Below are positions 5,579 to 7,086 of a stretch of DNA of 56,752 bases, piece after piece; positions within the stretch are counted from its first letter, which is position 1; each line of letters starts with the position of its first letter. Location: NCBI GenBank assembly GCA_019635975.1, contig JAHBYM010000005.1:1-56752 (forward strand). The letters run 5' to 3'. The position numbers and the translations under genes were made by a program. Below the pieces are notes generated by a model. The model had not been told where the DNA came from and did no database searches. It saw only the letters and a program-made list of their open reading frames with translations. Source of the stretch: Parvibaculum sp. (lineage in GTDB: Bacteria; Pseudomonadota; Alphaproteobacteria; Parvibaculales; Parvibaculaceae).

Positions 5579-6043
5579 ATGGAGCTTGAAGATCTGGTGC
5601 AGCCGGAGGGGGTGATCGCCCATCTCAAGGTCACCAGCAAAAAGCAGGCGCTGCAGGAACTCGCCGAACGCGCCGCAAAAATCACGGGCCTCTCGGAGCG
5701 CGCCATTTTCGAAACGCTGCTGGAGCGCGAACGTCTCGGTTCGACCGGCGTCGGCCAGGGCATCGCCATTCCGCATGGCAAGCTCGGCGAGCTCGACCGG
5801 CTCCACGGACTTTTCGCGCGTCTCGACACGCCCGTGGATTTCGAATCCGTCGACGACCAGCCCGTCGATCTGATGTTCCTGCTGCTGGCGCCGGAGGGCG
5901 CGGGCGCCGATCACCTGAAGGCGCTGGCGCGCATTTCGCGCCTTCTTCGCAATCCGGCCGTCGTCGAAAAGTTGCGCGCCTCGGAAGACGCCGCCGCCCT
6001 TTTCGCGATCCTCACCGAACCGGCTGCGACCAGCGCGGCTTGA
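5579..6043 (+). CDS. ptsN: PTS IIA-like nitrogen regulatory protein
   Basis: A 154-residue EIIA-Ntr protein with one PTS EIIA type-2 domain. The phosphorylated histidine is His66 in AIPHGKL. The protein receives phosphate from NPr and regulates potassium and nitrogen physiology through protein contacts. The frame is open back to 5444, inside hpf, but that stretch has no homology to the family. The ATG at 5579 gives the normal length and has AGGA eight bases upstream. A strong terminator follows, ending the cluster. Confidence 0.93.
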   Translation: MELEDLVQPEGVIAHLKVTSKKQALQELAERAAKITGLSERAIFETLLERERLGSTGVGQGIAIPHGKLGELDRLHGLFARLDTPVDFESVDDQPVDLMFLLLAPEGAGADHLKALARISRLLRNPAVVEKLRASEDAAALFAILTEPAATSAA

Positions 6044-6093: not shown

Positions 6094-6178
6094 GTGGGGT
6101 GGAGCAGATGCCAACAATAGAAGTGTCATCCCGGGATTTGTTGCACTTGCGTTTGTCCCACCCCTCCCCCCAAAAACT

Positions 6179-6209
6179 CGTCTTTGCCGGGCTTGACCCG
6201 GCAACCCAG
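6179..6209 (+). repeat. Left inverted repeat, REP-like palindrome
   Basis: A 31-base sequence whose exact reverse complement occurs at 6618-6648. Inside it is a perfect hairpin, TTGCCGGG (6184-6191), loop CTTGA, CCCGGCAA (6197-6204). A second small hairpin, GCCGC-GTA-GCGGC, follows at 6212-6224. From memory, palindromes of the form GCCGGGCTTGACCCGGC are common in intergenic regions of alphaproteobacteria. Confidence 0.85.
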
Positions 6210-6294
6210 AAGCCGCGTAGCGGCGTCAATCTTCGCAAGGATTCATTGCAGCAAGCGCTTTGCTCTCGTCCCGGGCAATGCGCACACTCATCCC

Positions 6295-6582
6295 ATGCGC
6301 GACCACTTCGTCTACATCCTCGCAAGCGGAAAGAATGGAACGCTCTATACCGGCGTCACCAACGATGTGCTGCGCCGCATATCGGAGCACAGGCAGGAAC
6401 TCACCAAAGGCTTCACCAGCCGCTACGGCGTCAAGCATCTCGTCTGGTATGAGGTTCGCATGACCGCGCGAGGTGCCATTCAGCACGAGAAGAATATCAA
6501 GCACTGGTCGCGGGCATGGAAGATTGCATTGATCGAGGAAATGAACCCGACATGGCGCGATCTGTTCGAGGAACTGCTGTAG
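6295..6582 (+). CDS. GIY-YIG nuclease family protein
   Basis: A 95-residue stand-alone GIY-YIG domain of the YhbQ/UPF0213 type. Motifs in order are VYIL (6-9) and YTG (18-20) for the two-part GIY-YIG signature, the Arg pair at 27-28, EH at 31-32, and the likely metal-binding Glu65 in IQHEKNIKHW. Such domains cut one DNA strand per active site. The frame is open upstream to 6184, but that part runs through the repeat and is not conserved in kind; the ATG at 6295 starts the domain. It has no fused DNA-binding domain. Similar genes are often misnamed excinuclease subunit C. Inverted palindromes flank it. Confidence 0.87.
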   Translation: MRDHFVYILASGKNGTLYTGVTNDVLRRISEHRQELTKGFTSRYGVKHLVWYEVRMTARGAIQHEKNIKHWSRAWKIALIEEMNPTWRDLFEELL

Positions 6583-6617
6583 TTTTTTCGAAGAGAGACG
6601 CCGCCTTGCGGCGGCTC

Positions 6618-6648
6618 CTGGGTTGCCGGGTCAAGCCCGGCAAAGACG
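6618..6648 (-). repeat. Right inverted repeat, REP-like palindrome
   Basis: Exact reverse complement of 6179-6209 over 31 bases. The core hairpin is TTGCCGGG (6623-6630), loop TCAAG, CCCGGCAA (6636-6643). The inner second hairpin here is stronger than on the left: GCCGCC (6600-6605), loop TTGC, GGCGGC (6610-6615). It lies 35 bases after the GIY-YIG stop. Confidence 0.85.
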
Positions 6649-6731
6649 AATTTGGGGAGAGGGTGCGAGAGACAGTGCCGCCGGCTTGCCGGTGGATATG
6701 AAGGTCCGGAAGGCGGCGTCACCGTCGCCGC

Positions 6732-7040
6732 TCAATGCACGCTGACAGGCTCCAGGTCGTATTGCCGCGCGCCGGCAAAGGCCGCGTCGCGGTTGTCGAG
6801 CACGGCCATGCGCTGACCATTGGCGGCATGCACCGCATAGAGGCGCGTATCGGCGGGGATGTTCAGCTCGTCGCCGATCTCGCTCTCGATCTCGCCGGCC
6901 AGCACTTCGCGGACATAGACGATGTTCGGAACGCCGATATTGGCGAACATTTCCGGCGTCAGTCCGCGGAAATCCTTTATGCCCCAGCCCGAGGCCCCGG
7001 CCTCGTTCTCGAACGTCTCGTTTTCGGTTTCGTTACGCAT
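6732..7040 (-). CDS. DUF1150 family protein
   Basis: A 102-residue protein matching what I recall of the DUF1150 family, found in alphaproteobacteria next to small heat-shock genes. Recognisable parts are NIVYVREV near the middle and the conserved C-terminus ARQYDLEPVSVH. No function is established. The ATG at 7040 is chosen because AGGAG lies eight bases upstream; an ATG at 7070 would place that site inside the gene. It follows hsp20 by 46 bases on the same strand and is probably in its heat-shock transcript. Confidence 0.8.
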   Translation of the reverse strand: MRNETENETFENEAGASGWGIKDFRGLTPEMFANIGVPNIVYVREVLAGEIESEIGDELNIPADTRLYAVHAANGQRMAVLDNRDAAFAGARQYDLEPVSVH

Positions 7041-7086
7041 GATACTTACTCCTTTCCGCCCTTCCTTCATTAACGAAGCAAAGGGC

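Follow-up and report, generated by a model that had tools for sequence, protein, structure and literature searches.

A stand-alone GIY-YIG nuclease gene between inverted CGTC-type REPs: a candidate REPtron-like mobile unit in Parvibaculum

The boxed gene and its palindromes

The window, a stretch of 56,752 nucleotides at the start of a contig from a Parvibaculum draft genome, contains a small unit of about 480 bp in which a single gene stands between two inverted palindromes. On its left lies a ptsN-like gene and on its right a conserved ORF. The features, in window coordinates, are as follows.

5580..6043, plus strand: ptsN-like gene on the left; most relatives have nothing in the gap that follows it
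6124..6145, plus strand: TGTCATCCCGGGATTTGTTG, a decayed REP-like stretch that lies outside the unit and close to it (read from the sequence, without statistics)
6174..6216, plus strand: left inverted-repeat arm, holding a CGTC-type REP at 6179-6208
Parts of the left REP, plus strand: tag CGTC at 6179-6182; stem 6184-6191 with 6197-6204; loop CTTGA at 6192-6196; tail CCA
6209..6228, plus strand: left inner subterminal hairpin, GCCGC-GTA-GCGGC (read from the sequence)
6295..6582, plus strand: 95-aa stand-alone GIY-YIG nuclease gene (Pfam, alignment, AlphaFold2, dN/dS)
6597..6618, minus strand: right inner subterminal hairpin, GACGCCGCC-TTGC-GGCGGC (read from the sequence)
6611..6653, minus strand: right inverted-repeat arm, with a mirrored CGTC-type REP at 6619-6648, its tag outward and its tail on the gene side
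6732..7070, minus strand: conserved ORF, right neighbour

A first-pass annotation of the window had described 31-bp perfect inverted repeats around the gene. The repeats are there, and it is their length that has to be corrected: the exact match between the arms runs to 32 nt, and imperfect arms of 43 nt (95% complementary, 394 nt apart) extend on both sides into the second, inner hairpin. Chance can be ruled out as their origin, because the longest exact arm in 300 Markov shuffles of the same flanks averaged 8.6 nt and never exceeded 12. Each arm has at its core the perfect hairpin that had been claimed, with 8 bp in the stem and 5 nt in the loop; its folding energy as DNA is -10.1 kcal/mol (z about -4.3). 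Among gene-less elements, only one in another genome of the genus (G007) was found to have similar inner hairpins. In relatives the length of the unit ranges from roughly 360 to 540 bp. The search of the host genome that the annotation had proposed finds the exact palindrome GTCTTTGCCGGGCTYGACCCGGCAAYCCAG 12 times in the draft assembly (3.26 Mb, 84% complete). Four of the 12 copies flank two GIY-YIG genes, namely the one in the window and a boxed copy on contig C76. The decayed sequence at 6124-6145 is possibly an older insertion into the same intergenic gap, in which case insertion there would have been repeated.

The first-pass annotation also named similar palindromes as common in alphaproteobacteria. 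These are a published group, the CGTC REPs, which are abundant in alphaproteobacteria, occur as head-to-head pairs and include dRS3 of Neisseria and RPE-4 and RPE-6 of Rickettsia (Di Nocera, De Gregorio and Rocco, 2013; PMC3733652). They are defined by a CGTC or TGTC tag, a stem of 8-9 bp, a loop of 4-5 nt and a CCA tail (PMC3733652). Both window arms match this anatomy in stem, loop and tail, and both carry an unpaired CGTC tag at the outer end (6179-6182, mirrored at 6645-6648). One position departs from it. The first two stem positions of CGTC REPs are 'almost invariably' complementary AT (PMC3733652), whereas the first stem position of the window REP is unpaired, with T opposite C and T where the published type has A. 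The genus has many sister copies with GTCATTGCC. Judged by their sequence, the window arms are members of the CGTC REP superfamily, apart from this unpaired base. REPs of the window type are multi-copy, and the REPs of the genus lie mostly in head-to-head pairs. An Rfam search gave sub-threshold chance matches only.

What moves CGTC REPs? The defining paper states that they are without a dedicated transposase, tabulates no transposase association, and reports on transposase genes while leaving nucleases out in the sections covered (PMC3733652). Its authors propose either a loss of the enzyme of the CGTC REPs or their movement by unrelated transposases (PMC3733652).

The gene between the arms is an ATG ORF and, as the annotation had it, the only content there. 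Its 95-residue product matches Pfam GIY-YIG (55.7 bits, 6e-15) and no other Pfam family. The features of the GIY-YIG superfamily are present, both the fold and the conserved Tyr, Tyr, Arg and Glu. Tyr18, Arg28, His32 and Glu65 are invariant in an alignment of 68 relatives and Tyr7 is nearly so. The AlphaFold2 model has a mean pLDDT of 95, and the nearest solved folds are UPF0213 (YhbQ-like) proteins followed by Slx1, including Slx1 bound to flap DNA (matches 1zg2, 1ywl and Slx1-Slx4 with 5' flap DNA). Four rows from plasmid records were left out of the structure alignment. Between the window copy and the C76 copy in the same host genome dN/dS is 0.10, and it is 0.03-0.20 in most nuclease pairs. 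On this codon evidence the gene is under strong purifying selection, and the low values in most pairs mean that it is kept for its function.

Searches for a more familiar kind of enzyme gave little. Pfam and NCBIfam detected no transposase domain in the window unit, NCBIfam had no match for the window protein, and the defence (PADLOC) and phage (PHROGs) families had none either. Phage records yielded two weak matches only, and so there is no sign of a phage homing gene. Y1_Tnp is absent from the host genome and was found in one of 27 Parvibaculum genomes (G001). With RAYT-type transposases missing from the other 26, the enzyme known from other REPs does not account for these.

Recurrence of the box and its match with the nuclease

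The draft host genome has eight GIY-YIG genes, three of which are boxed: the window copy, the C76 copy with the same palindrome, and a copy on contig C270 with a different one. An inverted-repeat scan of the 27 Parvibaculum genomes found 47 of 94 stand-alone GIY-YIG loci to be boxed compared with none of 145 control windows. A second, separate detector was built from the published REP anatomy and looked for inverted REPs with their tags outward. By this measure 40 of the 57 loci of one nuclease subfamily, recognised by the motif GTLYxGVT, are boxed in these genomes, as against 1/36 other stand-alone GIY-YIG loci, 1/440 control windows and 0/23 ptsN genes (Fisher 1e-11 and 3e-44 against the comparison sets). 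The one boxed locus among the others, L102, turned out to be a subfamily member that the motif filter had missed. Once it is reassigned the split is 41/58 for the subfamily and 0/35 for other stand-alone GIY-YIG genes. These counts are conservative, since the REP detector is blind to the window's own palindrome type with its unpaired first stem base. Enrichment of palindromes near GIY-YIG genes, which the first-pass annotation had set as a test of its idea, is therefore strong at this subfamily.

The layout is not restricted to the genus. A wider sample consisted of 80 loci from named genomes, to which plasmid-collection records were added. Here the inverted-repeat scan found 50/89 boxed versus 2/222 controls, and the REP-anatomy detector 49/88. 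Boxed copies occur in alpha-, beta-, gamma- and deltaproteobacteria and in Moraniibacteriota, other copies from candidate phyla have boxes as well, and in Neisseria gonorrhoeae the nuclease gene lies inside a dRS3 cluster. The association of the nuclease subfamily with REP boxing, like the unit structure itself, is very firm. As a separate observation, plasmid p1 of Planktothrix agardhii (L212) carries a nuclease relative between an MmeI-type restriction enzyme and the DISARM gene drmA; no box was detected around this relative.

Palindrome and nuclease also evolve together. Over 479 non-orthologous unit pairs, protein identity correlates with palindrome similarity (rho 0.60; 0 of 2000 permutations in a Mantel test). 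Where proteins from different genomes are at least 75% identical, their palindromes have a mean similarity of 0.69; where two proteins of one genome are less than 60% identical, the figure is 0.10. For two REP types, copy number is higher in genomes with the cognate nuclease clade (p 0.0025 and 0.0002) and is not significantly related to the non-cognate clade (p 0.32 and 0.11), all four values being calculated without regard to species relatedness. Nearly all of the 27 genomes carry these REPs. One of them, G013, has 62 REPs of one type and none of these nucleases, which indicates that REPs can outlast the enzyme.

Unit edges and the occupancy of sites

Alignment of units at non-orthologous sites shows that homology ends at the outer ends of the palindromes or within a few bases of them. 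The edge offsets are 0/0 for L021-L023, 0/0 for L023-L043 and -3/0 for L019-L043. In having such defined ends at sites that are unrelated, the unit is discrete in the manner of an insertion sequence. Some units are vertically inherited and occupy the same site in several species. The gaps within listed head-to-head REP pairs fall into classes of about 28, 82, 155-173 and 311-423 bp, and all eight of the listed pairs with gaps of 250-450 bp enclose a GIY-YIG gene. By analogy with the REPINs of RAYTs, the shorter classes look like gene-less derivatives.

Comparison of empty and filled sites after ptsN had been proposed in the first-pass annotation, and both kinds exist. Among genomes with a readable ptsN gap only the host has the nuclease gene there. 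In G013 the gap is short and empty although PtsN is 100% identical, and in G007 (PtsN 99% identical) it holds a gene-less palindrome pair. The sites of L005, L043, L044 and L071 are likewise empty or otherwise occupied in relatives, with flank identities of up to 97%. In addition, one site can hold different nuclease clades (L043 in G016, L103 in G009). Taken from such alignments, mobile behaviour of the unit is well supported. The original suggestion of a mobile or REP-maintaining unit thus withstands the two findings that would have spoken against it, as the palindromes are enriched at these genes and empty ptsN sites exist. Another gap, the L085 site, shows recurrent insertion: in it or next to it lie nuclease units of different clades, or a gene-less REP pair alone, according to the species (G026:C120, G008:C132, G010:C136, G017:C265, G023:C99, G004:C4 and G006:C7).

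The L063 site offers a more detailed view. G008 has a unit there and G010 has exactly TGTCATCCCGGGGCTTGTCCCCGGGATGACA, between flanks that are 94-97% identical in a comparison that is unpolarised. The G010 sequence consists of the two outer half-palindromes joined, with the edges otherwise unchanged. Elsewhere the site holds a gene-less pair of another type (G013) or nothing (G000, G014, G016). Symmetrical collapsed palindromes of this kind, with tags at both ends (TGTCAY...RTGACA), occur at about 34 sites in 15 of the 27 genomes and belong to one REP type; examples are G010:C219:3398-3428 (L325) and G023:C116:56860-56887 (L257). Three coincide with the position of a nuclease unit in another species.

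Perhaps the collapsed palindromes are excision scars. However, the one in G010 could also have arisen by ordinary replication slippage between direct repeats of 8-9 bp within the palindromes. The nearly precise excision of Tn10 yields a slippage product of the same kind. Because slippage would leave the same product, the collapsed palindromes are no proof of enzyme action. No target-site duplication was consistent over several sites and none was seen in G008 at L063; in empty sites the gap sequence close to the insertion point is usually changed as well.

A candidate enzyme for CGTC REPs

A functional parallel is the REPtron (RAYT/TnpA-REP, with GTAG REPs and REPINs). It too has a small enzyme gene between inverted tagged palindromes, gene-less pairs elsewhere, and palindromes that co-evolve with the enzyme. 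However, a RAYT is an HUH single-tyrosine transposase that acts on single-stranded REP hairpins, whereas the enzyme here is an unrelated GIY-YIG hydrolase with an Slx1/UvrC-like fold, and the tag is CGTC instead of GTAG. The comparison with RAYT-REP systems made in the first-pass annotation is therefore sound as analogy and fails as kinship: the window unit probably works like a REPtron and is not a member of that group, because the defining enzyme and the tag differ. The unit shares with GIY-YIG homing endonucleases of the I-TevI type a GIY-YIG catalytic domain in a selfish element. It differs from them in having no intron or intein and no NUMOD or other DNA-binding domain, and in being a single domain of 95 aa that is encoded in an intergenic gap and bounded by its own palindromes. 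Insertion sequences have a known transposase and the window unit has no transposase domain. Unlike the window family, the remaining stand-alone GIY-YIG genes of the Parvibaculum genomes have no REP boxes. Finally, the CGTC REPs of Di Nocera et al. are described as lacking a dedicated transposase, whereas here a nuclease gene lies inside the pair.

The explanation that we consider probable is a compact, REPtron-like mobile unit whose nuclease is a dedicated partner acting on its cognate REP family. It has observed support in the exact unit edges, the presence and absence at given sites, the matched evolution of REP and nuclease, the purifying selection, the catalytic residues, which are intact, and the scarcity of RAYTs. 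The nuclease likely acts on its REPs, presumably by binding and cutting them. In this model the unit would comprise a CGTC REP, the small GIY-YIG gene and an inverted CGTC REP, with both tags outward. The nuclease would recognise the tag and stem of its cognate REP in hairpin or cruciform form, the hairpin probably being exposed during replication, and would incise at or near the hairpin base, presumably close to the tag. Host repair or recombination might then copy, move or delete the unit or gene-less REP pairs, either by copying into a broken REP, as in homing, or by excision and capture. GIY-YIG enzymes hydrolyse DNA and to our knowledge do not join strands, which is why the model needs host repair.

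One further feature of the genus loci (L001-L129, L249-L268) is a leader of about 12 nt, rich in A and poor in G, just outside the REP tag. A reaches 74% at position -9 against a background of 19%. The leader may belong to the element itself, reflect a target preference or act as a terminator tract; in the model above it would suit single-stranded entry or a cut site.

The main rival holds that the nuclease is a housekeeping enzyme, a domesticated Slx1-like structure-selective protein that trims or resolves REP cruciforms, while the REP pair around its gene is regulatory and REPs spread in some other way. Strong purifying selection, the Slx1-like fold and the retention of several orthologous units at a single site in different species would all fit. 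What makes this idea rather improbable is that the REPs mark the exact edges of units found at unrelated sites, that close relatives have the same sites without the unit, and that a single site carries different nuclease clades in different species, as in G016 and G009. A homing-like route is better regarded as a special case of the dedicated-partner explanation. Here the nuclease would cut REPs at other places, single or paired, and recombination between REPs would copy the unit into the break. This is possible, if doubtful: in other species the sites of units do contain REPs, whether single, paired or collapsed, but the REP that is replaced is often of another stem type, which leaves short homology, and the nuclease would need to spare the REPs at its own flanks.

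Could the nuclease gene instead be cargo, with a RAYT or other transposase moving CGTC REPs in trans? The REP/RAYT precedent and the Y1 transposase of G001 speak for it. Nevertheless, 26 of the 27 genomes have no Y1_Tnp though nearly all carry these REPs, clade-matched palindromes are left unexplained, and Di Nocera et al. found CGTC REPs to have no transposase gene associated with them (PMC3733652). We think it very unlikely. Less credible still is a coincidence of neutral gaps, in which REPs are intergenic terminators and small expendable genes accumulate beside them. The A-rich, G-poor leader does resemble that of bidirectional terminators. However, all 35 of the remaining stand-alone GIY-YIG genes in these genomes lack a box, the tags almost always point outward and the unit edges are shared. 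Unit edges, co-evolution of REP and nuclease, and the boxing counts effectively refute this terminator-only reading.

If the dedicated-partner explanation is right, its reach may be wide. REPs have two great superfamilies, of which the CGTC type is one, and the paper that defined the CGTC REPs leaves open which agent spreads them. A linked and clade-matched nuclease is a concrete and cheaply testable candidate, and the first good one. REP-with-enzyme systems would then have arisen at least twice with unrelated enzymes, the very common 'GIY-YIG nuclease family protein' without an assigned role would gain a likely function, and an origin would be suggested for repeats that are used in strain typing and are thought to shape gene expression. 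A bolder version is that these units form a new class of bacterial mobile element. Its members would need no transposase: a minimal stand-alone GIY-YIG nuclease, helped by host repair, would move the units that its own REP hairpins enclose, and the class would have given rise to the CGTC REP families of bacteria at large, among them Neisseria dRS3 and the repeats of rhizobia, sphingomonads and candidate phyla. To this we give an even chance.

The first-pass annotation knew of no description linking GIY-YIG proteins with such palindromes. None was found, nor any paper linking CGTC REPs with GIY-YIG, in a search that most subscription papers and all preprints fell outside. GIY-YIG goes unmentioned in RepRanger (2025), as do palindromes in the 2006 census of GIY-YIG proteins. 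Within the literature covered, the link is treated as new.

Two loci have more elaborate arrangements. In a Parcubacteria genome (G029:C39, at 12597, 14657 and 17197; L279, L271 and L275) three nuclease copies lie within about 5 kb and two of them are boxed. At G002:C1:973589-974378 (L264) a 354-bp block with a REP is repeated in tandem, and the last copy ends in a normal head-to-head pair.
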